From Pseudovibrio brasiliensis (GTDB taxonomy: Bacteria > Pseudomonadota > Alphaproteobacteria > Rhizobiales > Stappiaceae), in assembly GCF_018282095.1 (NCBI RefSeq), contig NZ_CP074126.1, positions 2,242,501 through 2,306,500 on the forward strand: a DNA stretch of 64,000 nt, given 5' to 3'. The position numbers and the translations under genes were made by a program. The notes below the pieces were generated by a model. That model searched no databases, was not told the origin of the DNA, and saw only the letters and a list, made by a program, of their open reading frames with translations. Positions 13,635 through 34,351 of the stretch are shown piece by piece. Within the stretch, counting starts at the first letter, position 1; each line of letters begins with the position of its first letter.

Positions 13635-13658
13635 CTTCATTCGCAACATCAATCGGTG

Positions 13659-15305: not shown

Positions 15306-15437
15306 GCAGCTTCTCCTGTGTTGAACCTTCTATTTTGTGGTCAGGAGAGATCCTTTGGCTGGACCTTTCTTATCGTTCTTGTTGATCGGATACCCGTTTT
15401 TTGTATTTATTTTCAATGGTTGGGGGAGCGCCTGACA

Positions 15438-17839: not shown

Positions 17840-18486
17840 GTTCAGATACCTCGGCTAAAATGGTGCCTGGGGAGTTGACCGGTGCAGGTTGCTGAGATGA
17901 TCAGGTTGGATGCCTGATCGCGACAAACGAGTGAGTTGAGGGATGAAGCTGACTCAAGGGAAAGCGAGTGCAGATTCTTCTTGGGGTTTAGATGCTTGGG
18001 GCATCTGCTTAAAGTGACAAGTGAAAGGCGTCGGGAGACTTTATTATAGCTCTGCCGAACCTGAGGGGGAAAATGATCAGCGACCATCATTGGCTCAGCA
18101 CAGTAGAGCCTTTGGTCTGCTTGCAATCCAGAAGACTTGAACGGAGCACAAGCCCTGAAAAATGCTGACTGATACACTTTAAGCCTCCCTCTTATAGTGC
18201 GGCAGCTCTCCTAATTTTCAGGTGCCGTATCTTTGCGTCACGAACCCGAAAATCGAGAGTAATCAGGAAATCTAGTTCGAATTAATCTCACACTGGCAGG
18301 AAGTTTGAGGCATTTTGCCAGTAAAAATGCGACGCCTGAACACTGTGATTGGTGTAATCATGACAAGCGCTCAACTGCACGCAGCAACGCCTTGCCAAAT
18401 CAGCGGATGCTGATGCAGCACATGTCGCAATACTTCTGGTGGAATCTGTTGGAAGTCATGGGTCACTATATGTGAGTGCCATAAAA
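17840..18486. other. Long non-coding region upstream of gbcA
   Basis: About 650 bases between the sox operon terminator and gbcA with no credible gene. Two inverted repeats are visible: GATCAGG/CCTGATC at 17899-17919 and ACTGGCA/TGCCAGT at 18292-18322. The gbcAB promoter and regulator sites should lie here. Confidence 0.5.
17899..17919. promoter_or_regulatory. Inverted repeat 60 bases upstream of gbcA start
   Basis: GATCAGG (17899-17905), spacer TTGGATG, CCTGATC (17913-17919): a perfect 7-7-7 arrangement. It may be an operator or a 5'-leader hairpin for gbcAB; the binding protein is unknown. Confidence 0.4.
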
Positions 18487-18509
18487 AATGCGGCCCTAAA
18501 GGCCGCATT
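18487..18509 (-). terminator. Rho-independent terminator of soxBDAG, overlapping the soxG stop codon
   Basis: On the minus strand a perfect nine-base stem (18501-18509 with 18487-18495, five-base loop) is followed by TTTTTTA. The soxG stop codon (18498-18496) lies in the loop, so the last soxG codons form one arm of the terminator. Confidence 0.85.
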
Positions 18510-19008
18510 CAAACTCTTTTGTAGCAACGGAAAGCAGCCCCATTACATGGGGCACAAACGATCGCCAGACATCCAGCCGAAACTGGTTCTGCTCCTCCCG
18601 CGTCAGGATCACCTGCACACTGTCAAAAACAGTCCGCACCCCACGCCCAACCGTCAGCTCCCTCAAATTGCGGGGACACGACGTGGATAACAGCTCCTCA
18701 GCTTCTGGTCCCGAAACCCGGATACTCACTTCACGGCTGGAAACCTCCGTCAAACTATGAACGGCATCTGCATACACTGCTGCCAGAGGTTCTGTGATCC
18801 TCATCCGCTCATCCATCAGGCAGGTCAGCATCCATTCATCCGGCCCCAACTTGAGAGCGGTCACGTCGCCGGAGCGAACCAGCTCGCTGATGGAGGTAGG
18901 CAGCTCAAATCCGAGGGCTTTTGACATAGCAACGGTGTTTTCGCGTTTACAACGCAAACTAAAACGGCCCATTGCTGGCAGAGTTTCGACTGTGGTGTTG
19001 AAAGCCAT
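18496..19008 (-). CDS. soxG: Sarcosine oxidase gamma subunit
   Basis: A 170-residue SoxG-type subunit of heterotetrameric sarcosine oxidase, slightly short for a family usually near 180-200 residues. The ATG at 19008 is preferred because AAGGAG lies eight bases upstream; longer in-frame extensions overlap soxA and lack a ribosome site. It is the last gene of soxBDAG, 13 bases after soxA. The subunit shows weak similarity to aminomethyltransferase folds and probably supports assembly; it has no obvious catalytic motif. Its final codons double as a terminator arm. Confidence 0.88.
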   Translation of the reverse strand: MAFNTTVETLPAMGRFSLRCKRENTVAMSKALGFELPTSISELVRSGDVTALKLGPDEWMLTCLMDERMRITEPLAAVYADAVHSLTEVSSREVSIRVSGPEAEELLSTSCPRNLRELTVGRGVRTVFDSVQVILTREEQNQFRLDVWRSFVPHVMGLLSVATKEFECGL

Positions 19009-19021
19009 TTGCGCTGCTCCT

Positions 19022-22021
19022 TTAAAGATTAATCCGCTCGCCATCAGGATCGTAAAACACGGTCCCGGTAACGGTTGCACGATGGGTTTGTCCCGGCATC
19101 GGAACGTCAATCGACTTTCCATCCCGCTCAAAACCACCTTCAATCAAGGCCATAGCAATGGAACGCCCCAAAGCTTCACTCCAGTAGGAAGATGTCACAT
19201 GTCCCAGCATCTTAGCCGGAATGGACGTATCTCCACTCTCAACAATCTGAGCACCTTCCTCCAGCACAACACTCGGATCTTCCGTCAAAAGCCCAACCAG
19301 CTGTTTGCGGTTTGCAAGCAACATGTCAGGCCGCGTTAAAGACCGCTTACCAACAAAGTCAGGCTTCTTCTTACCAATCGCCCAAGTCAGCCCCGCATCG
19401 GCAGGCGTTACTGTCCCATCAGTGTCCTGGCCGACGATGATGTAACCCTTTTCTGCGCGCAAAACATGCATGGTTTCAGTGCCATAGACACACATGTCAT
19501 ATTTCTTGCCTTCCTGATAAAGCATCTCCCAAAGTGCTCGACCATGCTCAGATGGAACGTTCACCTCAAAACCTAGCTCTCCGGTAAAGCTCACCCGGAA
19601 CAGCCGTGCCTCAAATCCACCAACGGTACACTCACGAAGTGCCATATGCGGAAACGCTTCAGCAGAAAGATCAGTGCCTTCTACGAATGGTTCCAATACC
19701 TTACGGGCGTTCGGGCCATTGAGCGCGATGGTGGACCACTGCTCAGTTGTTGACGTCAACCACACATCCAGATCAGGCCATTCAGTCTGCAAAAAGTGCT
19801 CCATCATGGTCAAAACCCGCGCAGCACCACCAGTTGTCGTCGTCACATGGAACCGATCTGGACTTATCCTCCCGATCACACCATCATCACGAATGAATCC
19901 ATCTTCACCCAGCAACAGACCATAACGACACCGACCCGGCGCCAGCTTGGTCCATGGGTTGGTGTACATCCGGTTCATGAACTCGGCAGCATCCGGCCCA
20001 ACCACTTCAATCTTACCGAGGGTAGATGCATCGAACATGCCCACAGAAGCGCGGGTTTCTCTGCATTCCCGCACAACAGCCGCGTGTATATCTTCGCCTG
20101 CCTTTGGGTAGTACCAGGCGCGGCGCCAGAGAGAGACTGGCTCAAAAACAGCACCGTTCTCTTCAGCCCAACTGTCAATGTTGGTTTTACGCGTCACTTC
20201 AAACAGCTCATCCTTGTGGTAACCCGCAAAGGTGCCAAAGGTGGTCGGCGTGTAAGGCGGGCGGAAGGTTGTCAAACCAACCTTGGGGGCAGGGCGTCCC
20301 AGCTCGTCAGCTGCGATCTTTAGCCCGTTCATGTTGGACATCTTACCCTGATCAGTCGCCATGCCATTGGTTGTAAAGCGTTTTACGTGCTCAATGGAGA
20401 GCATACCTTCACGCACAGCAAGACGAATATCCTTCGCTGTCACATCATTCTGGAAGTCTACAAAAGCCCGGCGAGCCAACTTATCATCATTGCTCGGCAG
20501 CTCTTCCATCACAATGCCAGACCCGGCACGGTCTCCATCCACATCAACCGAAATGGTTTTCGCAGTCTGTCCCAAAGATGCCAGTGCTTGCTCTGCTGCA
20601 TGCACACCATCATCAAACGCCGCCTGCTGGCTCCACAAGCCGCGACCACCACCAGCAATATGGCAGCGCTCTGTCTTCTCACCGGGCAGGAAAACCTCGT
20701 TCTCCTCATCCCAATGCAGGCTGCCCTTGGTGTGAGAGAACAAATGCAGCGACGGCGTCCAGCCGCCACTCATCAACACTGTATCACAGGAAACAGACGT
20801 AATATCAGTGACTTTGCCGTCACCAGTTACCCTACCAATCTGAACGCCAGAAACGCGCTTCTTACCAGAAACGCTCGTAACAGTGTGACCTGTCTTGGCA
20901 GTTATACCCCGCGCTTGCGCCTCAGAAAACAGATGATCGCCAACGGAAGAGCGCACATCAACCAGTGCAGCGATCTTCACGCCTGCTTCAGCCAAATCAA
21001 ACGCCGCATACCAGGCTGAATCATGCGAAGTCATAACAACAGCCGCAGTGCCAACCTTCACCCCATAGCGGTTGAGGTAAGTCTGCGCAGCACTTGCCAT
21101 CATCACGCCCGGACGATCATTGCCATCAAACACCAATGGCCGCTCCAGCGCTCCTTGTGCCAGAATGACTTCCTTCGCCCGAATGCGCCACATCCGCTCC
21201 CGCGGTGCACCAGTAGGTGGGGATGCCAGATGATCCGTCAGCTTCTCAGCCACGCCCACCATGTTCTCATGGTAATAGCCGATCGCAACAGATCGTGTCA
21301 TGAGGCGTACATTCGGGCAGGCTTTAAGCTCTTCAATACATTCAGAAAGCCACGTTTCTGTAGACTTACCATCAATGCTGGTTGGTGCTTCTGAGAGCAG
21401 AGAACCACCCAGCTCCCGGTTCTCATCCACCAGCACCACGTCCGTGCCATTCCGCGCTGCTGTGAGTGCTGCAGCAAGCCCAGCAGGGCCAGCGCCAACA
21501 ATCAGCAACTCAGCGTGCAGGTAGCGTGAAGCATACGTGTCTGCATCCGGCTCGCTTGGTGAAACACCCAAACCAGCAGAGACACGAATGACCGGTTCAT
21601 AAACCTTGTCCCAGAAGCTCTTCGGCCACATGAAGGTCTTGTAGTAAAAGCCTGCCGCAAAAAGCTTATGCAGCTTGTCATTGATCGCACCAACGTCAAA
21701 GTTCAGGCTTGGCCACTTGTTCTGACTGGCGGTTGTCAGTCCCTCATAGATCTCCTGAACTGTTGCGCGCGTGTTCGGCTCAAACCGCCCGGCACCACGA
21801 GACGTTCCAATCAGCGCATTGGGCTCTTCTGATCCTGCAGTAACAGGCCCACGAGGGCGATGATACTTGAACGAACGCCCCATAAGATGCACGCCATTCG
21901 CAAGCAGGGCGGAAGCAACCGTATCGCCCTCAAACCCTTCATAGAAAACGCCATCAAAGGTGAAGCGAATGCGCTTGTCGCGATTGATACGACCTTTGCC
22001 ATCAACTCTCAAGTTGCTCAT
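19022..22021 (-). CDS. soxA: Sarcosine oxidase alpha subunit
   Basis: A 999-residue subunit: an N-terminal 2Fe-2S-ferredoxin-like domain (residues 1-100), an NAD(+)-binding flavoprotein-like domain with GAGPAGLAAAL near residue 175, and a C-terminal GcvT/GcvT_C tetrahydrofolate-binding half from about residue 600. With SoxB it oxidises sarcosine to glycine and, with tetrahydrofolate, yields 5,10-methylene-tetrahydrofolate and hydrogen peroxide in the cytoplasm. The start at 22021 (MSNLRVDG) fits known alpha subunits and overlaps the end of soxD by 20 bases; an upstream in-frame start at 22072 is inside soxD and is rejected. Confidence 0.95.
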   Translation of the reverse strand: MSNLRVDGKGRINRDKRIRFTFDGVFYEGFEGDTVASALLANGVHLMGRSFKYHRPRGPVTAGSEEPNALIGTSRGAGRFEPNTRATVQEIYEGLTTASQNKWPSLNFDVGAINDKLHKLFAAGFYYKTFMWPKSFWDKVYEPVIRVSAGLGVSPSEPDADTYASRYLHAELLIVGAGPAGLAAALTAARNGTDVVLVDENRELGGSLLSEAPTSIDGKSTETWLSECIEELKACPNVRLMTRSVAIGYYHENMVGVAEKLTDHLASPPTGAPRERMWRIRAKEVILAQGALERPLVFDGNDRPGVMMASAAQTYLNRYGVKVGTAAVVMTSHDSAWYAAFDLAEAGVKIAALVDVRSSVGDHLFSEAQARGITAKTGHTVTSVSGKKRVSGVQIGRVTGDGKVTDITSVSCDTVLMSGGWTPSLHLFSHTKGSLHWDEENEVFLPGEKTERCHIAGGGRGLWSQQAAFDDGVHAAEQALASLGQTAKTISVDVDGDRAGSGIVMEELPSNDDKLARRAFVDFQNDVTAKDIRLAVREGMLSIEHVKRFTTNGMATDQGKMSNMNGLKIAADELGRPAPKVGLTTFRPPYTPTTFGTFAGYHKDELFEVTRKTNIDSWAEENGAVFEPVSLWRRAWYYPKAGEDIHAAVVRECRETRASVGMFDASTLGKIEVVGPDAAEFMNRMYTNPWTKLAPGRCRYGLLLGEDGFIRDDGVIGRISPDRFHVTTTTGGAARVLTMMEHFLQTEWPDLDVWLTSTTEQWSTIALNGPNARKVLEPFVEGTDLSAEAFPHMALRECTVGGFEARLFRVSFTGELGFEVNVPSEHGRALWEMLYQEGKKYDMCVYGTETMHVLRAEKGYIIVGQDTDGTVTPADAGLTWAIGKKKPDFVGKRSLTRPDMLLANRKQLVGLLTEDPSVVLEEGAQIVESGDTSIPAKMLGHVTSSYWSEALGRSIAMALIEGGFERDGKSIDVPMPGQTHRATVTGTVFYDPDGERINL

Positions 22022-22319
22022 TGCTCTCTTCACCTTCTTCAGAACCTGTCGGACGAGGCTGCCCAATCTCATAGGTCGCGATAAACTTGTCGCTCACAGT
22101 GTTGCGCAAGGCATTGAAATAACGCCCACATCCATGCGTATGACGCCATTGCTCAGCGTGATCACCGCGCACATTGGAGCGAATGAACAAGTAGTCCCGC
22201 CACTCCGCGTCGCTCTGCTCAGCAGGGTTCAGTGGACGAGAGATATGCGCTTGTCCTGCATATTTAAACTCAAGTTCGGGTAGTTTTTCCTTGCAATAAG
22301 GACAGTGAATTAAAAGCAT
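22002..22319 (-). CDS. soxD: Sarcosine oxidase delta subunit
   Basis: A 105-residue zinc-binding small subunit. Zinc ligands are visible in HCPYC near residue 5-9 and in the THGCGRYFN segment near residue 61-69. The last ~15 residues are acidic and serine-rich. In known heterotetrameric enzymes the delta subunit binds zinc and packs against alpha. The gene starts 11 bases after soxB and overlaps the start of soxA, consistent with tight operon expression. Confidence 0.93.
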   Translation of the reverse strand: MLLIHCPYCKEKLPELEFKYAGQAHISRPLNPAEQSDAEWRDYLFIRSNVRGDHAEQWRHTHGCGRYFNALRNTVSDKFIATYEIGQPRPTGSEEGEESNEQLES

Positions 22320-22330
22320 CGGCTGCCTCC

Positions 22331-23584
22331 TTAATGCGCAACAGCAGCAGCGGCTGCTTCGTCGATCAGACGTCCGGTTTCAAAACGCTCAAGCGTAAAT
22401 GGCGCGTTGATCGGGTGTGGTTCATCTTGTGCGATCGTATGTGCAAACACATGCGCAGAGCCCGGCGTTGCCTTGAAACCACCCGTGCCCCAGCCACAGT
22501 TGAGGTAAAGCCCTTTCACTGGCGTCTTGCCAAGGATTGGAGAGCGATCCGGTGTCACATCAACAACACCGCCCCATTTACGCAGCATGCGCATGCGTCG
22601 GAAGATTGGGAACACCTCGCAAATCGCAGCCAACGTATGTTCAATCAGCGGAAGCCCGCCACGTTGGGAGTAAGACACATACTGGTCAGTCCCGGACCCA
22701 ATCACCAGCTCGCCCTTGTCAGACTGGCTGATATAAGCGTGCACAGTATTGGACATAACCACTTGAGGGAAGATTGGCTTTACGGGTTCTGAGACAAGCG
22801 CCTGCAAGGGATAACTTTCCAGCGGAAGACGAACCCCAGCCGTATCCATCACAACAGATGTGCCACCCGCCGCTGAAACTGCGATCTTCTTCGCTTTCAC
22901 AAAACCACGGGCCGTTTGCAAACCACTTACGGCCCCATCAGGTCCGCGCTCAATGGAAAGAACAGGGCAGTTCTGAATGATATCAACGCCGCGTGCTGCC
23001 GCCGCACGCGCATAGCCCCAAGCCACTGCATCATGACGAGCCGTCCCACCGCGCTGCTGGAAGGCAGCACCCATCACCGGATAACGTGCGTTTGGTGAGA
23101 TGTTGAGCGGCGGGCACTTCTCTTTTGCCTGCTCTGGTGTGAGCCACACATTGTCGACGCCGTTCAGTCGGTTGGCATGGATATGCCGCTTAAAGCTCTG
23201 CACATCATGAACATTATGCGCCAGCATCATCACGCCGCGCTGCGAAAACATGACGTTGTAATTGAGATCCTGACTAAGCCCATCCCACAGATCAACCGCA
23301 TGATCGTAAAGACGCGCGCTTTCGTCATAAAGGTAGTTGGAGCGGATGATGGTGGTGTTGCGACCCGTGTTGCCACCGCCGAGCCACCCCTTATCAATCA
23401 CTGCCACATTGGTGATACCATGTTCTTTGGCCAGATAATAAGCAGCGCCAAGACCATGGCCGCCGGCACCCACGATGATGACGTCATACTCGCTCTTAAG
23501 CTCAGCATCAGGCCATTGCGGCTCAACATTCTTATAGCTCGTAAGCGCGCCCTTCAGGAGCGATACTGCGGAAAATCTTGACAA
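22331..23584 (-). CDS. soxB: Sarcosine oxidase beta subunit
   Basis: A 417-residue flavoprotein subunit carrying the sarcosine oxidation site. The FAD motif VGAGGHGLG lies near residue 38, and His184 in GGTARHD matches the position where this family attaches FMN covalently. The start is a TTG at 23584 preceded at ideal distance by AAGGAGG; this gives MSRFSAVSLL, the standard beta-subunit N-terminus, and rejects a longer frame reaching into the divergent regulator. It is the first gene of soxBDAG, divergent from a second GATase-AraC regulator likely to control it. Confidence 0.95.
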   Translation of the reverse strand: MSRFSAVSLLKGALTSYKNVEPQWPDAELKSEYDVIIVGAGGHGLGAAYYLAKEHGITNVAVIDKGWLGGGNTGRNTTIIRSNYLYDESARLYDHAVDLWDGLSQDLNYNVMFSQRGVMMLAHNVHDVQSFKRHIHANRLNGVDNVWLTPEQAKEKCPPLNISPNARYPVMGAAFQQRGGTARHDAVAWGYARAAAARGVDIIQNCPVLSIERGPDGAVSGLQTARGFVKAKKIAVSAAGGTSVVMDTAGVRLPLESYPLQALVSEPVKPIFPQVVMSNTVHAYISQSDKGELVIGSGTDQYVSYSQRGGLPLIEHTLAAICEVFPIFRRMRMLRKWGGVVDVTPDRSPILGKTPVKGLYLNCGWGTGGFKATPGSAHVFAHTIAQDEPHPINAPFTLERFETGRLIDEAAAAAVAH

Positions 23585-23682
23585 GGCTACCTCCTTGGTA
23601 TTCAAGCAAGTTTGCCCGCTAAGTAAAATCATGTATGGTACCTTTACGAAGAATTTAGAGTATTTTTGCGCAAGGGGTGCAG

Positions 23683-24678
23683 ATGGCAAATACCGTTAGT
23701 CCTTCACGGAAATCTCGACCTGCACTCAATGTTGGCTTTATTCTTGCCAACCGTTTCACGCTTTCAGCGTTCGCTAGTTTCATCGACGTCCTGCGCCTTT
23801 CTGCAGATGAAGGAGATAGCAGTCGTCAAATTCTTTGTAATTGGAGCGTTATTGCACCCGACATGAAGCCCATCCGGGCCAGCTGCGGTGTGCGCATTCA
23901 TCCCGATACCGGTCTGGCCGATCCATCAAGCTTCGATTACCTGGTTGTTGTTGGCGGCCTGATTGAGCACATAGAGCGACTGGATCGCCGTTATGTAGAC
24001 TACCTACAAAGCGCAGTGGCTAAGAATGTCCCGTTGATCGGATTGTGCACCGGTAGCTTCATCCTACACCGGGCGGGCCTCATGAACGGATACAAATGCT
24101 GCGTCAGCTGGTTCCACCGTACTGATTTTCTGGAGCAGTTCGATGGGTTGGAGCCGGTCTCGGACAGGATTTTTGTAGTGGATCGGGACCGGATCTCCTG
24201 TTCTGGCGGAACAAGCGCTGTCCATGTGGCTGCTTATCTAGTGGAACGACATGTTGGTCTACGGCAGGCGCGCAAAAGTCTAAACATCCTCATGGTGGAT
24301 GAAGCACAGGATGACAGTAAAGCCCAGCCGTTCCTGCCCACATCGCTGAAAGCCAAGGATAATCTGGTTCAGCGTGCAGTCCTCATAATGCAGCAGGAGA
24401 CCGAAAACCTACGCAGTATCGAGCAACTCTGCAAAATGCTGGGAGTAGGGCGCCGCAGTCTGGAAATGAAGTTCAAAGCGGATTTGGGGAAGTCACCCGC
24501 CGAAGCCCTCAGTCACATTCGCATAGAAGAAGCCAAACGTTTGCTGGATGAAACAGACGCCACCATAACAGATGTAGCAATTCGCTCCGGCTTCTTTGAT
24601 GCATCCCACTTCAACAAGGTCTTCCAAAAACACACCGGTCAAACCGCCAGCACCTATCGCAAATCCCTGACCGCTTAG
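23683..24678 (+). CDS. SouR/GbdR-like regulator: GATase1-like domain plus AraC helix-turn-helix
   Basis: A 331-residue regulator with the same architecture as the one at 12560-13597 and strong similarity throughout, for example NVGFILANRFTLSAF near residue 16 and LCTGSFILHRAG near residue 125, then an AraC domain from about residue 225. It is divergent from soxB by 98 bases. In Pseudomonas, SouR of this type activates sarcosine oxidase genes in response to sarcosine, which is the most likely role here. ATG 23683 has AAGGGG just upstream; a GTG two codons earlier is possible. Confidence 0.88.
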   Translation: MANTVSPSRKSRPALNVGFILANRFTLSAFASFIDVLRLSADEGDSSRQILCNWSVIAPDMKPIRASCGVRIHPDTGLADPSSFDYLVVVGGLIEHIERLDRRYVDYLQSAVAKNVPLIGLCTGSFILHRAGLMNGYKCCVSWFHRTDFLEQFDGLEPVSDRIFVVDRDRISCSGGTSAVHVAAYLVERHVGLRQARKSLNILMVDEAQDDSKAQPFLPTSLKAKDNLVQRAVLIMQQETENLRSIEQLCKMLGVGRRSLEMKFKADLGKSPAEALSHIRIEEAKRLLDETDATITDVAIRSGFFDASHFNKVFQKHTGQTASTYRKSLTA

Positions 24679-25148: not shown

Positions 25149-27593
25149 TTATGCTTTCACACGTAACATCTTTGGATCATATAGCGGCGCAAGGTGTACC
25201 TCGCAGGGGACACGTTCTGTGGCGACTTCAAGTTCGTAGTGGCCACCCAGAACGAAATCTGTATCGACACCGTCGCTGTTTCGGACATATCCAAGACCAA
25301 TGGATTTTTGCAGGGTATGCCCGAAACCACCTGAGGATAGCCAGCCGACACGAACGCCATCGCGGTAGATCGTCTCGCGGCCCGAGAGGATGATGTCGCT
25401 ATCTGTCACAAAGGTTGCGAGCATTTTCTTCACGCCGTGGGTCCTTTGCTGTTCGATCGCATCGCGCCCTTTAAAGGCAATGTTCTTTTTCAGCTTCACA
25501 GCCCAACCAAGGCCTGCTTCTTCCGGCGTATGGTCCGGCCCGATGTCGCTGCCCCAAGCTCGATACCCCTTTTCAAGGCGTAGCGTTTCGATGGCTCGGT
25601 ACCCAGCATTACGCAAGCCAAACTCTTTGCCAGCCTCATGGAGAGCCGCATAAACACTGGTGGTATACTCCACTGGCAAGTGAAGTTCCCATCCGAGTTC
25701 CCCCACATAGGTCACTCTCAGTGCGTGGACTGGGCAACCTGCAATGCCGATCTTGCGCGCTTGACCGAAACGAAACCTCTCATTGCTCACATCATCTCGT
25801 GTAGCGCGCTCAAGGATGTCGCGTGACTTTGGCCCCATGAGGGAAAGCACCGAATAGGCAGAGGTGACATCGACCAGCTGTACATTCATCCCTGCGGGGA
25901 TGTTGCGTGAGATCCAGTCGAAATCATGGGTGGCAAAACCGGTTCCAGTGACGATGTAGTACTCGTCCTCCGCAACACGAACACAGGTCAGATCGCACTC
26001 AATACCGCCACGATCATTCAGCATCTGCGTGTAGATTAATGTACCGATTGGCTTGTCGACATCGTTGGCAGCAATCCAGCTGAGGGCATCAACCGCATCA
26101 GGACCTTTCAACGTAAACTTGGCAAAGGACGTCTGATCAAAAAGAACAGCTGCTGACCGCGCTGCCTCGTGTTCCCGGCCTACAGGTTTGTGCCAGTTTG
26201 GCCTTGAAAAGGTATAGATATCCCGCTGTTGCTCGTCGTTTTTGATATCTGCATACCAGTTGGGGCGCTCCCAGCCCAGCTTCTCTCCAAACACAGCACC
26301 ATCTGCTTTCAGGTACTCATAGAGTGGTGACTTGCGGCAGGGGCGACCACTTTCATGCTCCTCATTTGGCCACGCCATAGTGTAGTGCTTGGCGTAGGCT
26401 TCTTTCGTACGCGTTCTGATCCAGTCACTGTCAAAATGGGGTCGGCCAAAGCGGCGGATATCAACGGGCCATAAATCAAACGGCGGCTCACCCTTCGCGA
26501 TCCATTCAGCCAGAGCCAAGCCGGCTCCGCCACCAGCTGCGATACCAAAGGCGTTAAAGCCCGCGTTGACGTAAAAGTTTTTCAGCTCCGGAGCTTCCCC
26601 CATAATGAAGTTGCCGTCGGGTGTGAAACTCTCCGGTCCGTTGATCAGTTCCTTGATCCCGGCAGTCTCTAGTGCTGGCACACGGCCTAGAGAGAGTTCC
26701 ATCAAAGGTTCAAAGTGCCCAAAATCGCTGTCGAGCAAGGTGTAGTGGAAGCCTTTTGGAATACCGTCTTCTGCCCAGGTCAGCGGATTGGCTTCATATC
26801 CACCCATCACAAGACCGCCCACCTCTTCTTTGTAGTAGGTCAGTCTGTCCGGATCCCTCAATGTCGGCAGGTCTCTGGGAACACCGGGAATGGGCTCAGT
26901 CACAAGATACTGATGTTGCATTGGAACCAACGGCACATTCACGCCAACGCTTTTTGCAAAGTCTCGCGTCCATTGCCCGCAACACGCCACCACAACAGAA
27001 CAGTCGATCCGACCGCGGGAAGTCTCAACACCCTTGATCACACCCTTTTCAACGTCAACACTCAGTACTTTGGTATCTTCAAAGATCTGCGCACCAGCCA
27101 TTCGTGCGCCTTTGGCAAGAGAAAGGGTAATGTCCGATGGATTGGCTTGACCGTCACTTGGCAAAAAGGCGGCCCCAACCACATCGTCCACCTGCATCAG
27201 CGGCCACAGGTCCTGTGCCTCCTTTGGCGTCAGCAACTGCATATCAAGCCCGAAGGAATGGGCAGTCGTTGCTTGCCGTTGAACCTCTGTCCAGCGTTCA
27301 TGGTTGCAGGCTAGCCGAAGCCCGCCGTTCATTTTCCAGCCCGTCGCTTGCCCTGTTTCCTCTTCGAGGCGCTTGTAAAGATCTACGGAGTAGCCAAGCA
27401 GTTGAGTGATGTTGGCATTAGACCGCAACTGCCCCACCAAACCGGCAGCATGAAAGGTCGTACCGGAGGTCAGCTTTTTTCGCTCCAGCAACACGACGTC
27501 CCAGCCCAGTTTGGCAAGGTGATACGCTGTTGAGCATCCAACAATGCCGCCACCAACGATCACAGCTCTGGCCGTTTTCGGTAATTCCTTCAT
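25149..27593 (-). CDS. Dimethylglycine/sarcosine dehydrogenase-like FAD and folate enzyme
   Basis: An 814-residue member of the DMGDH/sarcosine dehydrogenase family. The FAD motif VGGGIVGCST lies near residue 13, and TTFHAAG holds His48, the residue that binds FAD covalently in this family. A substrate and linker domain follow, then GCV_T and GCV_T_C folate domains from about residue 430 to the end. It should oxidatively remove an N-methyl group and form 5,10-methylene-tetrahydrofolate. This is the best candidate for dimethylglycine to sarcosine in the window, but it is encoded in a transporter-kinase operon rather than with gbcAB, so another N-methyl substrate is possible. ATG 27593 has GAGG five bases upstream, overlapping the kinase stop. 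Confidence 0.9.
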   Translation of the reverse strand: MKELPKTARAVIVGGGIVGCSTAYHLAKLGWDVVLLERKKLTSGTTFHAAGLVGQLRSNANITQLLGYSVDLYKRLEEETGQATGWKMNGGLRLACNHERWTEVQRQATTAHSFGLDMQLLTPKEAQDLWPLMQVDDVVGAAFLPSDGQANPSDITLSLAKGARMAGAQIFEDTKVLSVDVEKGVIKGVETSRGRIDCSVVVACCGQWTRDFAKSVGVNVPLVPMQHQYLVTEPIPGVPRDLPTLRDPDRLTYYKEEVGGLVMGGYEANPLTWAEDGIPKGFHYTLLDSDFGHFEPLMELSLGRVPALETAGIKELINGPESFTPDGNFIMGEAPELKNFYVNAGFNAFGIAAGGGAGLALAEWIAKGEPPFDLWPVDIRRFGRPHFDSDWIRTRTKEAYAKHYTMAWPNEEHESGRPCRKSPLYEYLKADGAVFGEKLGWERPNWYADIKNDEQQRDIYTFSRPNWHKPVGREHEAARSAAVLFDQTSFAKFTLKGPDAVDALSWIAANDVDKPIGTLIYTQMLNDRGGIECDLTCVRVAEDEYYIVTGTGFATHDFDWISRNIPAGMNVQLVDVTSAYSVLSLMGPKSRDILERATRDDVSNERFRFGQARKIGIAGCPVHALRVTYVGELGWELHLPVEYTTSVYAALHEAGKEFGLRNAGYRAIETLRLEKGYRAWGSDIGPDHTPEEAGLGWAVKLKKNIAFKGRDAIEQQRTHGVKKMLATFVTDSDIILSGRETIYRDGVRVGWLSSGGFGHTLQKSIGLGYVRNSDGVDTDFVLGGHYELEVATERVPCEVHLAPLYDPKMLRVKA

Positions 27594-27600
27594 TGCAACC

Positions 27601-28494
27601 TCATTTTAACTGGAGCTCAGCATAAGCACGTTCAAACCGGAGCAGGTTTTCTCTGGTGTAATTGGCGTAATCAAACTGGATCTTGGATGTCTGCTCGGAA
27701 ACCATGCTCCACATGCTTTCACGCAGCAAAGACGCGCATTTCATCGCGTTGTATCTCTCCCACAACTCATCTGAAACGGGCGTGTCGAAATAGATTGCTA
27801 GAAGTAACTTCTGCAAGTTTTCCGTAAGACTGGCGTTGGTGGCCAAACCTCCAAGATCAAACAGTGGAGAGTTCATGCCGGCATACTCCCAATCCACCAG
27901 CCAAAGCCGACCATTCTCATTCAAAATGTTGGCAGGCAGTAAATCGTTATGGCACAGCACCAGTTGCACCTTGCCAACAGCAGCCTCAAGCTTTTGCGCT
28001 TTTTGCATCAGGTCATCTAGTTTGGGTATGTGATCGGAATCGAGTAAGCGCAGGGTTTCTGTGTAATCCCGAAGGATATGAAATACCCAGAAAGCCAAAA
28101 CAGGCCCCCGGATCAGCTGAGTTGCGTCTCTATGAACTTTTCCAAGCAATGCGACGATCAACTCAAGCATCTCTGGCTGCTGTATTTCTTCCTCACTGAG
28201 CGGTTCAGCTGGAATGTAATCCTGAACAAGCGCACCTTTTTGAAAGTATCGAACCGCAGGGGCTACACCAGCTGCGTGTGCGGCCCGGCATGCCGAAAGT
28301 TCATTAAATCGCATCACCCCATGTTCAACGATGTCTTCTCCCAGCCGAACAACATAGGTGCGGCTTTCATCGGTAATTTTCACGTTGAAGTTCGTAATGC
28401 CACCACCCAGTATCTCAGCATTGCTGGGCGCTTTCCAGAAGGGCAGTTCAAGTGCTTTGGTTACAGCTAATTCCTTTGTCAACGTCTCAGTCAT
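27601..28494 (-). CDS. Choline kinase / aminoglycoside phosphotransferase-like kinase
   Basis: A 297-residue small-molecule kinase of the choline/ethanolamine kinase and APH fold. The catalytic loop is CHNDLLPANIL near residue 181, followed by the metal-binding VDWEYAG near residue 201; the N-lobe starts with a GGGITNFN glycine loop near residue 30. These match LicA-type choline kinases better than antibiotic kinases. It lies between the permease and dehydrogenase genes, overlapping the permease by four bases, so the substrate is probably imported by this transporter: choline, an N-methylated amino alcohol or a related compound (inference). It would be cytoplasmic. Confidence 0.82.
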   Translation of the reverse strand: MTETLTKELAVTKALELPFWKAPSNAEILGGGITNFNVKITDESRTYVVRLGEDIVEHGVMRFNELSACRAAHAAGVAPAVRYFQKGALVQDYIPAEPLSEEEIQQPEMLELIVALLGKVHRDATQLIRGPVLAFWVFHILRDYTETLRLLDSDHIPKLDDLMQKAQKLEAAVGKVQLVLCHNDLLPANILNENGRLWLVDWEYAGMNSPLFDLGGLATNASLTENLQKLLLAIYFDTPVSDELWERYNAMKCASLLRESMWSMVSEQTSKIQFDYANYTRENLLRFERAYAELQLK

Positions 28495-30497
28495 GTCACC
28501 AGCCCCAATCTTGCTTGAGAGGATTTAGCGAGTGCGGATAAAATACGGTCCGCAATAATGGCAATGAAGGCAACGGCAAGACCCGCTATGATACCTTGCC
28601 CGGTGTTTGCTTTGGTAAGAGCGATGTAAACTTCTTGGCCCAGGTCGCGCGTTCCAACCAATGCGGTGATCACAAGCATTGAAAGTGCCAGCATGATAGT
28701 TTGGTTCAATCCCAGAAGAAGGGAAGGGACCGCCAATGGCAGTTTGATACGCCAGAGCAACTGCCAGCGCGTGCATCCTGAAACTTTGCCAGCCTCAATA
28801 ACCTGCGGATTGATCTCGCGTATGCCGTGCGCGGCATATCGTAAAGCGGGCGCCATAGCGTAAAGCACAATCGCCACCATGGCGGAAAATTCGCCAACCC
28901 TGAACAGCATGACAACCGGAATGAGATAAACGAAGCTTGGGAGCGTCTGCAGCGTATCAACCAGTGTGCCAAGAACACGGTTCGCCCGTTCAGACTGCCC
29001 CGCCCAAACCCCAAGCGGCATGCCTATGGCCGCGGCCAGTAAGACCGACACCCCGCAAAGATAAACGGTGATCATCGCATCCCGCCAGAGCCCATTAACC
29101 GCAATGAAACTTGCAAGAAATGAGCAGAGTAAGCCAAGCTTAAGGCCACCAACACGCCACCCTACAAGCCCTAGCGCCACAATGCCCCATGCCCACGGGA
29201 TGCCAGCAAAAAAGCGCTTTATCGGTAACAGAAGATAGGTCAGAAGTGCCGTCTTGAATGCTTCAAACACCTCAAAGAAGTTGATGTTGATCCACTTAAT
29301 GGCCTCATCCCAGAAAGAACTGGTCGTGACTGTCAACGTTTCCGGATAGCTTTGCAGAAATGGAAACAACTTCCCCAGCAATGCCAGCACGACAGTGCTT
29401 AGAAGTGCCATCCCAACTAGTGGAAGCGGCTTGATACGATCAATACCGAGCCAATCACTTTGCCCGTGGTCTTGCTGAGAAAACGCCTGGCTCAACCGGT
29501 CTAATGCAATTGCGATGACGACGATGGCTAGTCCGGCCTCGATGCCCCCGCCAATATCTAATCGTCGCAGGGCTGCCAAAACGTCATAACCCAACCCTCC
29601 AGCGCCAATGATTGATGCAATGATGACCATGTTCAGGGAGAGCATGATGACCTGATTGACGCCAACCATCAGTGTTGGCAGAGCTGAAGGCAGCAGAACC
29701 TTCCACATCATTTGACGAGGTGTACACCCGGCCATCTGCCCAGCTTCATGCAGCTGTGTGGGTACAGATTGAAGAGCAACCAACACAACGCGCACCATCG
29801 GCGGCATGGCATAGATGATAGTTGCGACCAGCGCAGAAACCGGCCCAAAGCCAAACAGGAACAGGATTGGCACCAGATAGGCGAAGATGGGAACGGTCTG
29901 CATAAGATCCAAAACTGGACGCAGAAGTCGCTCAAAACCTGCAGATTTGTAGGCCAGAATGCCAAGTGCAAGCCCGCCAAACACACCAAACGGCACCGCA
30001 ATAGCAATTGAAGCCAGCGTCACCATCGCGCTTTGCCATTGCCCGAAGATCGCGAGAAAGAGGAAGCAACCAGCGACCAACAGCGCCAAGCGCCTGCCAC
30101 CAACACGGAATGCCAGTAGTGTCAGCAACAGTGTAACCGCAATCCAGCTTAAGGATGGCAGAACCTCGACAACCTGCTGCCCCACGCCGGAGTTAAAGCC
30201 ATCCGCCAGCAAGGCCCTCACAGCATCATAAGGAACTTCAATCAAGGCTGAGAAGAAACGTGTGAGCTCACGAAATGTGAAAAGCCCAAAACTGGCGTCT
30301 TCAACCAACCACGACATGAAACTGCTAATCCGGTTGTCTAACTTCCATTCCCACACGCTGGGAAATTTAATGATCCATCGCGCCCCAAAGGCTTTGTACA
30401 GCTGAAACGAATAGCTGGAGAGCAACCAGGTTGCAGCAAAAAGAACGCCCCAGAACAGAGCAGGACTGCGAAAGCGTTCCGAGAGTTGGTTGATCAT
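28491..30497 (-). CDS. Fused double permease of betaine/choline-type ABC transporter
   Basis: A 668-residue protein with two ProW-like permease domains in tandem, the first at about residues 150-340 and the second at about 480-660. Each carries the EAA-type loop contacting the ATPase (HEAGQMAGCTPRQMMWKV and EAGKVSGCTRWQLLWRI) and each is flanked by extra membrane segments. Most systems of this class use one permease gene working as a homodimer, so this looks like an internal duplication and fusion giving a pseudo-heterodimer. It overlaps the genes on both sides by four bases, showing tight operon coupling. Confidence 0.9.
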   Translation of the reverse strand: MINQLSERFRSPALFWGVLFAATWLLSSYSFQLYKAFGARWIIKFPSVWEWKLDNRISSFMSWLVEDASFGLFTFRELTRFFSALIEVPYDAVRALLADGFNSGVGQQVVEVLPSLSWIAVTLLLTLLAFRVGGRRLALLVAGCFLFLAIFGQWQSAMVTLASIAIAVPFGVFGGLALGILAYKSAGFERLLRPVLDLMQTVPIFAYLVPILFLFGFGPVSALVATIIYAMPPMVRVVLVALQSVPTQLHEAGQMAGCTPRQMMWKVLLPSALPTLMVGVNQVIMLSLNMVIIASIIGAGGLGYDVLAALRRLDIGGGIEAGLAIVVIAIALDRLSQAFSQQDHGQSDWLGIDRIKPLPLVGMALLSTVVLALLGKLFPFLQSYPETLTVTTSSFWDEAIKWININFFEVFEAFKTALLTYLLLPIKRFFAGIPWAWGIVALGLVGWRVGGLKLGLLCSFLASFIAVNGLWRDAMITVYLCGVSVLLAAAIGMPLGVWAGQSERANRVLGTLVDTLQTLPSFVYLIPVVMLFRVGEFSAMVAIVLYAMAPALRYAAHGIREINPQVIEAGKVSGCTRWQLLWRIKLPLAVPSLLLGLNQTIMLALSMLVITALVGTRDLGQEVYIALTKANTGQGIIAGLAVAFIAIIADRILSALAKSSQARLGLVT

Positions 30498-31525
30498 TCG
30501 GCCAACTCCTGTTCCAGCATCAGGCTCACAATCTTATCGCGATCTATGGTTCCAATTGGCTCACCATCATCATTCATCACACGAAATGGACGGTTTGATT
30601 TTCCAACTTGAACCGCCACATCCGCCACCTTCAGATGCGCCCTCAAATCTCCGGCATATGAGCCCGCAGAGCATCCTTGCTCCATGATCGTTGCAAGCTG
30701 AATGACTTTGGTCTTGGGAATATGCTGGGTGAACTCTTCCACGTATTCTGTAGCCGGATGAGTGACCAGCTGTTCCGGCGTTGCAATCTGGACGATCTCG
30801 CCATCCTTCATCACGGCTATTCGGTCTGCTAACCGAATAGCCTCTTCAAAGTCATGGGTGATGAAGATGATGGTCTTGTGAAGCTTGCTTTGAAGCCGCA
30901 AAAATTCATTCTGCATCTCACGCCGGATCAAGGGATCCAGCGCAGAAAAGGGTTCATCCAGAAACCAGAGATGAGGATCGCCAACGAGAGACCGCGCAAT
31001 CCCAACCCGCTGCTGTTGCCCGCCAGAAAGTTCCCGAGGATAGGCGTTTTCACGCCCCGTCAGGCCGACGGTATCAATCATCTCCTGTGCACGAGATTCG
31101 CGTTTTGCGCGGCGTACACCCTGCACATCCAATGGAAAGGCAACGTTTTGAAGGACGGTTAGATGTGGCAACAAAGCAAACTGCTGAAACACCATACCCA
31201 TCTTCTTGCGCCGGACCTCAATGAGTTCGCACTCAGACATACTGAGCAAGTCTTGCCCTTCAAAACGTATCGCACCTGCGGTGGGTTCCACCAAACGGGA
31301 AAGGCAGCGCACCAAAGTTGACTTGCCGGAACCGGAAAGGCCCATGATTACGAAGATCTCGCCCTTCATAATCTGCAGACTGGCTGCGCGAACAGCACCT
31401 GTTAGCCCAGCAGTATCCAGCGCTTCGAGGTCTGGCGTAGACGGTCTGTCACGCAGAAAAGTATCCGCGTTAGACCCATAGATCTTCCAAAGATCCTGGC
31501 AATCCAAAAGGACAGTCTGGTTCAT
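30494..31525 (-). CDS. ATP-binding subunit of betaine/choline-type ABC transporter
   Basis: A 343-residue ProV/OpuAA-type ATPase: Walker A GLSGSGKST near residue 62, signature LSGGQQQ near 165, Walker B WFLDEP near 187, and a C-terminal tail with a CBS-like segment (about residues 270-340) that in OpuA-type systems senses ionic strength or nucleotides. The ATG at 31525 (MNQTVLL) has GGGGA upstream and is preferred over a start 13 codons earlier. It overlaps the fused permease gene and follows the binding protein gene by 81 bases. Confidence 0.92.
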   Translation of the reverse strand: MNQTVLLDCQDLWKIYGSNADTFLRDRPSTPDLEALDTAGLTGAVRAASLQIMKGEIFVIMGLSGSGKSTLVRCLSRLVEPTAGAIRFEGQDLLSMSECELIEVRRKKMGMVFQQFALLPHLTVLQNVAFPLDVQGVRRAKRESRAQEMIDTVGLTGRENAYPRELSGGQQQRVGIARSLVGDPHLWFLDEPFSALDPLIRREMQNEFLRLQSKLHKTIIFITHDFEEAIRLADRIAVMKDGEIVQIATPEQLVTHPATEYVEEFTQHIPKTKVIQLATIMEQGCSAGSYAGDLRAHLKVADVAVQVGKSNRPFRVMNDDGEPIGTIDRDKIVSLMLEQELAE

Positions 31526-31606
31526 GAAACATCCCCACAAGCGCTGATCGTCAACTGAAAGCAAAGGAAGATCTGGCCTTACTTCAAGGCCAGACCCGGG
31601 GTAGAG

Positions 31607-32548
31607 TTATTTCAACCAGCCCTGCCATCTTTCTTCATTTGCAGAGAGCCATTCACTGACAACAGCATCAACGGCTTGCCCCTCCAGATCCACTTTGGAG
31701 ATCATGGCGCTCATTTCAGCATTGCTGACGTGGAAGTTGGAGATTGCCTGTGCAGCGCCTGGCCATTTTTGACCTAGACCCGCCCAGGCAACCTTCCAGA
31801 TGGGGCCAGTGGGTTTGCCACAATCATAGGCCGCACTGGGGTTAACACCAGTTGTCGCGTCCTGATAACAGGCGACAGAGTAGGGCGGAAACTCAATGAA
31901 CTTACCATCATATTTTGCAGGCGCCCAATGGGGCTCATAAAGCCAGAGGATTATGGGCGCCTTGCGTTGATAGGCAGACTCCAACTCTGCAAACAACGCA
32001 GCATCCGTACCGGCATGGACAACTTCAAAATCCAGCTCTAAAGCCTCAACCCGCTCTTCATCAAAACCGCCCCAGGTGACCGGACCACCCAGATAACGCC
32101 CTAGTGGTGCAGTCTCGGCAGTTGAAAATGCCTCGGCACAGTCTTTGAGAGCTTCCCAGTTCGGCAAGCCGGGACAAACATCCTCCATATAGGATGGATA
32201 CCACCATTCCTCGATGGCGATCATGCCGCTTTCACCCAGGCTCACCACATTCCCGGTTTCAATGGCTTCATCCATAGCTTCCCGGCCTGTGGTTTCCCAA
32301 ATCTCCATGGCGACGTGTAGATCACCGGTCTTCAGGCCAGCAAACTGAGCAATGTAATCGGCTTGAACATACTCGATGTTATAGCCAGCCCGCTTCAGAA
32401 CTTCCCCCATGATGGTGGTGGTGATGATCTGACCGGACCAGTCATGCGTTGTGATTTTGATTGGATCGAGAGATTCAACGTCGGCCTTGGCTGCACTGAT
32501 GCTCAAAGCCATGACCAAAGCAACTGATGGAATTCCAGAGTATTTCAT
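31607..32548 (-). CDS. Periplasmic binding protein of betaine/choline-type ABC transporter (OpuAC/ProX family)
   Basis: A 313-residue secreted binding protein: signal peptide ending AAKA near residue 22, then an OpuAC-type fold rich in tryptophan and tyrosine (HDWSGQ, EIWETTG, EEWWYPSY), the residues that form cation-pi cages for quaternary ammonium groups in this family. Several cysteines (Cys124, Cys137 and two later) could form disulfides in the periplasm. It is the first gene of the five-gene operon and has GGAGGGG before its ATG. Ligand is probably choline, glycine betaine or another methylated amine. Confidence 0.92.
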   Translation of the reverse strand: MKYSGIPSVALVMALSISAAKADVESLDPIKITTHDWSGQIITTTIMGEVLKRAGYNIEYVQADYIAQFAGLKTGDLHVAMEIWETTGREAMDEAIETGNVVSLGESGMIAIEEWWYPSYMEDVCPGLPNWEALKDCAEAFSTAETAPLGRYLGGPVTWGGFDEERVEALELDFEVVHAGTDAALFAELESAYQRKAPIILWLYEPHWAPAKYDGKFIEFPPYSVACYQDATTGVNPSAAYDCGKPTGPIWKVAWAGLGQKWPGAAQAISNFHVSNAEMSAMISKVDLEGQAVDAVVSEWLSANEERWQGWLK

Positions 32549-32795
32549 CCTGTCCCCTCCTGCAGATGATTATCCTCATCTCAACGCTGCACGAATTGAA
32601 ATCCAACCCCCGAACAACTCCATCAGCGTGCACTTAGCTTACGTTGAGGTATTTGAGAAAATCAACATAATCCCACAGATATAATTCTCAAATAGTGTGC
32701 TGATGTGTGGGTTAATGTGGTTATTTGAGTTATTTTGTGTTTTGAATGACGGGACTTAACACTGGCATATGCAAAGCTGTTGTGGAGCGGATTTC
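32549..32795. promoter_or_regulatory. Divergent promoter region with three TATTTGAG repeats
   Basis: Between the ABC operon and the DeoR gene, TATTTGAG occurs at 32650-32657 and 32722-32729, and its inverse CTCAAATA at 32687-32694. The first and inverse copies extend to a perfect ten-base inverted repeat, TATTTGAGAA and TTCTCAAATA. Repeats of this kind are a likely operator array for the DeoR protein. Confidence 0.6.
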
Positions 32796-33569
32796 ATGGA
32801 AAACATTAATAATCAAACCCAAAGTGAAATCCTGGAAGCGGTCAGAAAAGCCGGAGGAACGAGCCGAATCGTAAGCCTCGCCAAGCACCTCGCGGTCTCA
32901 GAAGAAACCATTCGCCGCAATGTGAAATCACTCGCGAAAGAAGGATTTCTGGAGAAAGTCCATGGGGGCGTTCGACTGCTCCATGAAGAAAATGAGGAAA
33001 GCGACTTCCACGCACGAATGCTTGAGTGTCCGGCAGCAAAGAGAAAGATTGCTGCAACTGTCGCAAATATGATCGAAGACGATAGCTCACTCTTTTTGGA
33101 TGTGGGCAGCTCCACCGCTTTCATCGCCGATGCGCTCAAAGATCATAAACGCCTGATGGTCGTTACCAACTCGGTGGCCGTTGCCTACAAGCTCGCCACA
33201 CGAAATGAAAACCGCGTCTTCATGGCTGGCGGAGAACTGCGCGCCCATGATGGCGGTGCCTTTGGAGCCACAGCAACAAGCTTCTTTGAGAACTTCCAGA
33301 CGGACTACGCAATCTTGTCCGCCGCAGCCATAAGCCCAAGCAAAGGCATTATGCTGTTTGACCTTGAAGAAGCTCAAATCTCCAGAACAGTCATGCAACA
33401 CGCCAACTGCAAAATCGTGGCCGCAGATTCCAGAAAATTCACCCGAACAGCCCCCATCAATGTCTGTGATCCAACTTTGATTGACACACTTGTCACAGAG
33501 CAGAAACCAACCGATACGTTTTATCAGTCAGCAGAGAGATGGAAGGCCAGAATTATCGTTGCAAACTAG
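32796..33569 (+). CDS. DeoR-family transcriptional regulator
   Basis: A 257-residue DeoR-type protein: N-terminal helix-turn-helix (recognition around VSEETIRRNVKSLAKEG, followed by KVHGGVR) and a C-terminal DeoRC sensor domain with LDVGSSTA near residue 105, TNSVAVA near 126 and the DSRKF motif near 220. Family members usually repress and are released by phosphorylated sugars or similar phosphorylated ligands. It is divergent from an operon that includes a kinase, so the phosphorylated product of that kinase is a plausible inducer (inference). ATG 32796 has GGAG eight bases upstream; a start nine codons earlier is possible. Confidence 0.88.
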   Translation: MENINNQTQSEILEAVRKAGGTSRIVSLAKHLAVSEETIRRNVKSLAKEGFLEKVHGGVRLLHEENEESDFHARMLECPAAKRKIAATVANMIEDDSSLFLDVGSSTAFIADALKDHKRLMVVTNSVAVAYKLATRNENRVFMAGGELRAHDGGAFGATATSFFENFQTDYAILSAAAISPSKGIMLFDLEEAQISRTVMQHANCKIVAADSRKFTRTAPINVCDPTLIDTLVTEQKPTDTFYQSAERWKARIIVAN

Positions 33570-33730: not shown

Positions 33731-34351
33731 TCAGTTTATCCGCAACAACCGCTTCAGCTTTGTTTGGAAGCCGCCGCGCTTTTCTTTCCGTGCCAGCTCT
33801 TCCTCCGAGATCAGGAACGTGGTTTGAACCACGTAGCGTTCGCCCTTGAAGGATGGGTGTCCATGCCAGCTTGTTTCTGAACGTTTGAAGGCGAAGACAT
33901 TGCCAGCAAGAGGAGACACCTCTTCGGCATAGTCATCCATGTCCTTGTCACCATTCAGCGCGCGGATAGCCCCGCCTTCGGCGTTGTCCCAATCATCGTT
34001 GAGGTAGATCAGCATGGTACAGATCTTAGATTTTGAATCGTTGTGTATCCGGCCATCACCATGTTTGGAAAGGCGGCGCACGGTGATCATCCGTGGTTTG
34101 TCTATGAGGTCCAGATCCAGTTTGTCAGAAAGGATCTCCGCCAACTCAGGCTTCTGTAAATCCTCAATCAAGCTTTGAAAAGCACCGCTCGATTCCAACT
34201 TGGATAGAGGCAAATAACCTGTTTGTTTGATTTCAGGATAATCACGACGAATGTCAGCAGCTTGTTCTTTGGTAAGAACGTTCTCGCCAACCATGTATTG
34301 GAAAGGACTTGTACGAGTATTGGAGGCCCTGAGAGCATCGAAATTGATCAT
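33731..34351 (-). CDS. 2-oxoglutarate/Fe(II)-dependent oxygenase-like protein
   Basis: A 206-residue protein with the prolyl-4-hydroxylase-like jelly-roll pattern. The iron ligands are IHNDSKSK (His and Asp, near residues 102-104) and a later histidine in SWHGHPS near residue 161, followed by ERYVVQTTF, whose arginine would bind 2-oxoglutarate. Such enzymes hydroxylate proteins, sugars or small molecules. No operon partner indicates the substrate: it is flanked by the convergent DeoR gene and, upstream, by a 2.2 kb betT gene in the same direction with a hairpin between. Similar small oxygenases occur beside polysaccharide or glycosylation genes, but none is here. Confidence 0.75.
   Translation of the reverse strand: MINFDALRASNTRTSPFQYMVGENVLTKEQAADIRRDYPEIKQTGYLPLSKLESSGAFQSLIEDLQKPELAEILSDKLDLDLIDKPRMITVRRLSKHGDGRIHNDSKSKICTMLIYLNDDWDNAEGGAIRALNGDKDMDDYAEEVSPLAGNVFAFKRSETSWHGHPSFKGERYVVQTTFLISEEELARKEKRGGFQTKLKRLLRIN

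Follow-up and report, generated by a model that had tools for sequence, protein, structure and literature searches.

A conserved kinase–demethylase operon of Pseudovibrio brasiliensis, predicted to serve catabolism of N-methylated ethanolamines

The 64,000-nucleotide stretch of the Pseudovibrio brasiliensis genome analyzed here (hereafter, the window) contains, at positions 25149–33569, an operon of five minus-strand genes that encode an ATP-binding cassette (ABC) importer, a choline/ethanolamine-kinase-type phosphotransferase and an N-demethylase related to dimethylglycine dehydrogenase (DMGDH), with a divergent gene for a DeoR-family regulator. The operon is real, conserved and common to many Alphaproteobacteria. 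Gene neighborhoods support, and residue conservation is consistent with, the role that appears most likely for it, catabolism of N-methylated ethanolamines, in particular dimethylethanolamine (DMAE) and N-methylethanolamine, via phosphorylated intermediates, an assignment to which we give a probability of about 0.55.

Composition and layout of the operon

An earlier note on this DNA had described five tightly spaced minus-strand genes facing a DeoR gene, and all six genes are found where it placed them, within the range that it gave. In the order of predicted transcription, the minus strand encodes a periplasmic binding protein of the OpuAC family (31607–32548; PF04069, E 6.8e-49), an ABC ATPase (30494–31564 from a TTG codon, the ATG at 31525 being the likelier start; TIGR01186 proV subfamily, 340.6 bits over a cut-off of 326.6), a fused double permease of 668 amino acids (28491–30497), in which PF00528 (BPD_transp_1) matches two stretches of one protein, the kinase (27601–28494) and the FAD- and tetrahydrofolate-type demethylase of 814 amino acids (25149–27593). 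The kinase belongs to the choline/ethanolamine kinase superfamily (PF01633, E 1.1e-28, 100.8 bits over a cut-off of 29; also PF01636), with the catalytic HxDxxxxN ... D motif present as HNDLLPANI and LVDWEY. The demethylase combines DAO, FAO_M, GCV_T and GCV_T_C in one chain, all four above cut-off, and aligns over residues 7–798 with DMGDH (4p9s, 543 bits); against dimethylglycine oxidase (1pj5) it scores 410 bits. The gaps between consecutive genes are only 42 (81 with the ATG start of the ATPase), −4, −4 and 7 nucleotides, so that the five genes are likely to be transcribed as one unit. The arrangement is far beyond chance because related loci keep the same order.

The kinase and the demethylase as the conserved core

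Conservation was assessed in two samples. The named loci (L031–L110) are the best 80 of at least 553 confirmed relatives obtained with a 23-sequence kinase alignment against species-representative genomes, a sample biased towards the closest relatives; kinase relatives with 78–96% identity bear Pseudovibrio names. The second sample comes from 398 genomes drawn from the phylum, of which 22 encode the kinase at E ≤ 1e-35; these include the P. brasiliensis genome and genome G005, and the other 20 are the sampled loci. In 74 of the 78 named loci with enough sequence, and in all 20 sampled loci, the gene immediately 3' of the kinase is of the DMGDH type. The exceptions are L037, L046, L108 and L104, the last with the demethylase directly 5', and in L074 the gene 3' of the kinase is closer to a second demethylase paralogue (see below). 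Within the family, the kinase is found (E ≤ 1e-20) in 33 of 87 genomes, and a demethylase with at least 59% identity is encoded in the same 33. The importer (binding protein and permease) is present upstream in 44 of the 68 named loci with enough sequence and in 1 of the 20 sampled loci. The earlier note named a lack of co-occurrence of the kinase with the other genes as grounds for refuting its reading; this does not apply to the demethylase and applies in part to the importer. Judged by these neighborhoods, the kinase and the demethylase are the conserved core, and the importer is evidently an accessory, one of several uptake solutions.

Many loci additionally contain a second paralogous pair, demethylase 2 and kinase 2, often accompanied by a separate DeoR gene (kinase 2 in 27 of the 80 named loci, both genes in 23). 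A gene of the inositol-monophosphatase type (PF00459) is found in 33 of the 80, beside the first DeoR gene in many loci; in L130 and L178 (Ruegeria AD91A), the phosphatase gene immediately follows the demethylase and is co-directional with it. Both pairs stand behind the importer in a single run in Rhizobium rosettiformans and Ciceribacter.

Linkage to ethanolamine genes

The neighborhoods connect the pair to ethanolamine, and the stronger evidence comes from the permease EutH and from a Salipiger plasmid rather than from gene counts at the named loci. EutH (PF04346) is a rare ethanolamine permease in this class, found above the cut-off in 4 of the 398 phylum genomes and in 1 of 385 class genomes (G400). 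It adjoins the pair in three genomes: a Desulfobulbaceae metagenome-assembled genome (L104) shows the order demethylase–kinase–EutH, whereas G400 (L168) and Nitratireductor sp. OM-1 (L181) share the order DeoR / kinase–demethylase–EutH. The latter two are 77, 81 and 81% identical in the kinase, demethylase and EutH, respectively, and therefore count as one cassette, which rules out treating the three linkages as three separate lineages; L104, with 44–46, 48–49 and 68–69% identity to them, is the second arrangement.

The Salipiger abyssi plasmid pPABY1 carries the order phosphatase–DeoR / binding protein–ATPase–permease–kinase–demethylase–ETF beta–ETF alpha–FolD–PurU–amidohydrolase–ligase–aldehyde dehydrogenase (ALDH)–alcohol dehydrogenase (ADH)–GlyA, where the subunits of the electron transfer flavoprotein (ETF) are assigned by Pfam and the eleven compared genes are 52–78% identical; on the upstream side, beyond three unrelated genes, are further genes for GlyA, serine ammonia-lyase and PurU. 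By its predicted functions, this set can be read as a full pathway that leads from a methylated ethanolamine towards serine and pyruvate, with electron and one-carbon sinks. The kinase occurs in 19 plasmid records; in the 12 regions examined from them, two of which are unannotated and were scanned by sequence comparison only, the ethanolamine module is linked in one and EutH in one.

Downstream in the Cognatishimia locus (L063) are genes for an FGase-type amidohydrolase, a glutamine-synthetase (GS)-like ligase, ALDH and iron ADH, which, matched by function to the described strains, would carry the functions of the gamma-glutamyl pathway of ethanolamine. In Phaeobacter MED193, proteins with such functions become more abundant on phosphoethanolamine (PMC10132767), and the first step has been characterized in Streptomyces coelicolor (PMC6529630). 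At least two of these genes, with orthologue-like identity, are present in 6 of the 80 named loci (L063, L074, L075, L081, L086 and L093; ALDH and ADH only in L074 and L086), with L048, L103 and L109, which have one module gene each, left out of the count. The ligase appears in 4 of the 80 loci, against 0.31 expected if one copy occurs every 4.5 Mb (Poisson 3e-4), with query sequences that came from L063, itself one of the 80. The GS-family gene and N-formylglutamate amidohydrolase gene by the operon of Shinella HZN7 (L179) were excluded, with only 26% and 39% identity to the module. In P. brasiliensis (genome as searched, 6.03 Mb in six contigs), the module (L129) lies away from the operon, on contig C3, and consists of genes for the ligase (60% identical to that of L063), ALDH (73%), ADH (71%), the FGase-type amidohydrolase (GGAH, 55%) and a tripartite ATP-independent periplasmic (TRAP) transporter, with DctP, DctM, DctQ and FGase assigned by Pfam.

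The comparative genomics supports the interpretation of the earlier note in part, namely that the kinase and demethylase act in one pathway on an amino-alcohol-type substrate, with a linked DeoR regulator; the wider pathway, with the phosphatase, the gamma-glutamyl-ethanolamine genes and EutH, is seen in relatives and could not be read from a single window.

A pathway through phosphorylated intermediates

In the pathway proposed here, the ABC importer would take up the methylated amino alcohol via its aromatic cage, and the kinase would phosphorylate the hydroxyl group, so that the substrate would be trapped and would gain a negative charge like that of the carboxylate for which DMGDH-type enzymes are built. 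The flavoenzyme would oxidize the N-methyl groups, passing the one-carbon unit to tetrahydrofolate and leaving phosphoethanolamine, from which a phosphatase, of the inositol-monophosphatase type in many relatives, would free ethanolamine for conversion to glycine by the gamma-glutamyl pathway. DeoR would repress the operon until released by one of the phosphorylated intermediates. Gene order, family membership, conservation and neighborhood are observed, whereas the substrate, the order of phosphorylation and demethylation, the dephosphorylation in P. brasiliensis, and the repression and its inducer are points that we infer. The known substrates of DMGDH-type enzymes carry a carboxylate near the amine, and because a phosphate monoester would replace this carboxylate, the kinase would supply the missing charge; no residue of the demethylase is assignable as carboxylate- or phosphate-binding from the sequence alone.

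A precedent for phosphorylation ahead of demethylation exists in Eubacterium limosum, where MthK phosphorylates choline, and MthB then demethylates phosphocholine but not choline; the product, DMAE phosphate (PMC12155760), is the intermediate proposed here. The statement of the earlier note that no characterized pathway has this combination therefore needs a qualifier, although the E. limosum enzyme is a cobalamin methyltransferase. No published account of this gene set, or of an aerobic N-methylethanolamine pathway, was found among the titles and abstract openings of the open-access papers listed.

The residues of the binding protein agree with such a substrate. It scores 261 bits against the structure of TmoX (4xz6), its closest solved relative, and in the alignment W37, W84, E113 and W159 are the equivalents of W55, W102, E131 and W177 of TmoX, whereas F106, F220 and W222 are replaced by G88, W202 and Y204, so that four of the seven residues of the complete TmoX pocket for trimethylamine N-oxide (TMAO) are kept. 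All of W37, W84, E113, W159, W202 and Y204 are retained in 54 of 54 binding-protein sequences, and G88 in 53 (with one alanine). In TmoX, the glutamate bonds the oxygen of TMAO (pocket residue roles as given in PMC8918994), and the predicted aromatic cage together with that glutamate fits a methylated ammonium compound with a hydroxyl. The NCBIfam cut-offs for the three subunits of the choline importer ChoXWV are reached by the permease (406.3 over 363, in two stretches of one chain) and not by the ATPase (300.2 under 483.75) or the binding protein (43.3 under 379.05). The homarine and TMAO pathways were considered and rejected: the accessible text on them names no kinase or DMGDH-type partner (PMC8918994, PMC13390433), and the TmoX pocket is altered.

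The choline pocket of the choline kinase LicA consists of Tyr197, Trp251, Trp254, Tyr268 and Glu213 (PMC4364537). The kinase of the operon keeps the catalytic residues and three of the four cage aromatics: all of the 108 kinase-1 and 38 kinase-2 sequences have D184, N189, D201, Tyr204 and Trp262, and Tyr279 is found in 107 of the 108 and in all 38. The pocket is incomplete, with Val265 in place of Trp254 and Asn220 in place of Glu213. Kinase 2 has Glu in this last position in 38 of 38 sequences, so the two kinases probably differ in the preferred N-substitution; residue 220 is also a clean marker that separates the two paralogues.

Several observations weigh against the N-methylethanolamine assignment. 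The Asn that replaces Glu213 of LicA is found in 108 of 108 kinase-1 sequences, and with Trp254 lost as well, the ammonium site differs from that of LicA; the predicted cage of the binding protein would fit a quaternary amine, too. Without the query-source locus L063, the ligase is left in 3 loci of 2 genera (Poisson 0.004, or 0.04 with the two Litoreibacter loci taken as one), and the module is found in none and EutH in one of the 20 sampled loci. In the family, the ligase is present in 84 and ADH in 85 of the 87 genomes; with the module near-universal, its co-occurrence with the kinase is uninformative, and its presence in P. brasiliensis means no more than that the proposed product could be put to use. 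The P. brasiliensis genome has no second kinase and no orthologue of the dedicated inositol-monophosphatase-type phosphatase (best identity 35%), so that, we infer, a general phosphatase would have to perform the dephosphorylation. The pairing itself has exceptions in the orphan kinases L136 and L137 (47–50% identity), without a demethylase in 20 kb, and likewise the L108 kinase, and in at least one sampled locus, L152, the kinase is immediately preceded by a different importer, of the SBP_bac_1 type and with a MalK-type ATPase.

Alternative readings

The best placed of the alternatives, unlikely as it is, holds that the substrate is another hydroxylated or N-oxidized methylamine, for example, a hydroxybetaine, an N-methylated amino sugar alcohol or an amine N-oxide, and that the ethanolamine link is secondary. 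The NCBIfam model nearest to the kinase is GntI, the pre-guanitoxin N-oxide kinase, with 157.8 bits, below its equivalog cut-off of 357; DeoR regulators commonly sense sugar phosphates; the change of TmoX F106 to G88 alters the binding pocket; and the pair has sugar-type ABC genes nearby in Shinella and the SBP_bac_1 importer directly before the kinase in L152. The EutH linkages and the clusters in Salipiger, Cognatishimia and Litoreibacter, however, indicate ethanolamine.

Less likely again is a route that starts from choline, in which the kinase would make phosphocholine, and all three methyl groups would be removed by the flavoenzyme, either on its own or together with a partner. In its favor, the cage of the binding protein is similar to the one in which TmoX binds a trimethylated nitrogen (PMC8918994), the kinase belongs to the choline/ethanolamine kinase family, and phosphocholine is what E. 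limosum demethylates (PMC12155760). Against this start, LicA pairs the choline ammonium with a Glu that is missing from the kinase, and the P. brasiliensis genome has no match to the MttB family (PF06253), a member of which could remove the first methyl group; this is why DMAE and N-methylethanolamine are favored over choline. DMGDH-type flavoenzymes oxidize tertiary and secondary amines and are not known to oxidize quaternary ones. That the kinase–DMGDH pair is the core of a general aerobic route, taking phosphocholine through all the N-demethylations to phosphoethanolamine, is more doubtful still; if true, choline would be degraded to ethanolamine and glycine, bypassing glycine betaine and trimethylamine.

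The least probable alternative is that the two enzymes act on separate molecules, the demethylase on dimethylglycine, in line with its family name, and the kinase in scavenging ethanolamine or choline, for example, for lipid synthesis: the near full-length match to authentic DMGDH, the betaine and sarcosine genes near the operon in the window and the orphan kinases speak for it, but it is at odds with the near-invariant pairing at 7-nucleotide spacing, with the second paralogous pair, and with the sarcosine oxidase genes, which occur within the 10-kb flanks of only two Pseudovibrio loci (L032 and L034) of the 80.

Should the N-methylethanolamine assignment hold, a common role could be assigned to many proteins whose present names are phosphotransferase, thiamine kinase-like enzyme or choline/ethanolamine kinase, and to their flavoenzyme partners; 7947 of 8000 scored candidates match the kinase at E ≤ 1e-20, not all of which need share the function. 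Methylated ethanolamines are lipid head groups, and the pathway would link lipid, nitrogen and one-carbon cycling. DMAE is also the product of anaerobic choline demethylation (PMC12155760).

Regulatory region and other neighbors

The DeoR/GlpR-family regulator is encoded on the plus strand at 32769–33569 and contains the HTH_DeoR and DeoRC domains (PF08220, PF00455); the gene is divergent in 41 of the 44 importer-bearing named loci. The pattern CMACAWAA is present in 37 of 47 DeoR–operon intergenic regions, with 52 sites against a mean of 4.06 and a maximum of 8 in 100 shuffles, an enrichment that is suggestive only because the motif was picked after inspection of the sequences and the loci are related. 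Over the whole window, it occurs 7 times, with 9.67 expected, and thus shows no enrichment. In the intergenic region of the operon (32549–32768), the candidate DeoR site CAACATAA at 32663–32670 overlaps a promoter-like −10 element (match 32691–32664, minus strand), where promoter-like matches in this region are at chance level (7 against 6.5). The divergent DeoR gene and the recurrent CMACAWAA suggest that the operon and the DeoR gene are controlled from one shared region. An RNA hairpin with a 13-pair stem (31569–31597, minus strand; −19.8 kcal/mol, z −3.9) separates the binding-protein and ATPase genes, and a stable hairpin after the binding-protein gene is a layout common for such genes.

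Some relatives show further neighbors of the two pairs. In Rhizobium rosettiformans (L183, 4887–15694), the importer and both pairs are co-directional, which makes the two pairs comparable in one strain. Directly before kinase 2 in L036 (1268–4245) are genes for the small (DctQ) and large permeases of a TRAP transporter, which suggest another uptake route for the kinase 2 substrate. In L179 and L184, genes annotated as a metal/formaldehyde-sensitive repressor and DmeF follow the kinase–demethylase pair, which might suit formaldehyde release under folate shortage. In L104, EutH is followed (12095–14041) by genes for a GntR-UTRA regulator and a 386-amino-acid protein without a Pfam match at 1e-8. 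A methyltransferase gene between the demethylase and the second kinase in L160 and Shinella HZN7 was followed as a possible PmtA, a lead that was dropped: the nearest solved relative of the L160 protein is METTL27, and no phospholipid methyltransferase model is among its NCBIfam matches.

In the window, a glycine-betaine/sarcosine island lies near the operon (8607–24678). It contains a second DMGDH-like gene (853 amino acids), a formyltetrahydrofolate-deformylase-like gene, AraC regulators, a BCCT transporter, SoxG, SoxA (identified from its open reading frame) and SoxB, and a Rieske oxygenase and reductase pair, which we take to resemble GbcA/GbcB. On the other side, at 33731–34351, a small 2-oxoglutarate-Fe(II) oxygenase, weakly similar to the peptide-modifying YhhC (48 bits; cut-off 150), is encoded next to a BetT-like BCCT transporter gene.

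Comparison with known systems

The components of the operon resemble several characterized systems. The TmoXWV importer of TMAO (Ruegeria pomeroyi/Pelagibacter; PMC8918994) shares with the binding protein the four pocket residues W55, W102, E131 and W177, and differs in F106, F220 and W222, which are G, W and Y here, and in its partners, which here are a kinase and a DMGDH-type enzyme. LicA (4r77, 4r78; PMC4364537) shares with the kinase the catalytic Asp and Asn and the equivalents of Tyr197, Trp251 and Tyr268, whereas Glu213 has become Asn and Trp254 mostly Val, and the cell-wall context of LicA contrasts with the catabolic one proposed here. Dimethylglycine dehydrogenase and oxidase (4p9s, 1pj5) have the same full domain order as the demethylase, FAD then GCV_T; the group described here (59–100% identity in the family sample) is found in exactly the kinase-bearing genomes, and its proposed substrate would have a phosphate in place of the carboxylate.

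Genes with the functions of the gamma-glutamyl-ethanolamine pathway of Phaeobacter MED193 (PMC10132767) and S. coelicolor (PMC6529630) adjoin the operon in several relatives and are found at another place in the P. brasiliensis genome. In that pathway, the substrate is ethanolamine itself, with uptake in MED193 via the TRAP transporter EtoX, and the accessible text of these papers does not describe a kinase or demethylase step, unlike the route proposed here.

The closest parallel is the MthK/MthB/MthC/MthA system of E. limosum (PMC12155760), in which a kinase with LicA-like motifs acts before methyl transfer to tetrahydrofolate, as proposed here. That system belongs to an acetogen and relies on a cobalamin-dependent MttB-type methyltransferase that removes one methyl group from a quaternary amine, whereas the enzyme of the operon is predicted to be oxidative, with flavin and folate, in a genome in which no MttB was found. 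The authors of that study propose that the phosphate takes the place of a carboxylate, and the same reasoning is applied here; if it is correct, the substitution of phosphate for carboxylate would be a device used by two different demethylating chemistries.

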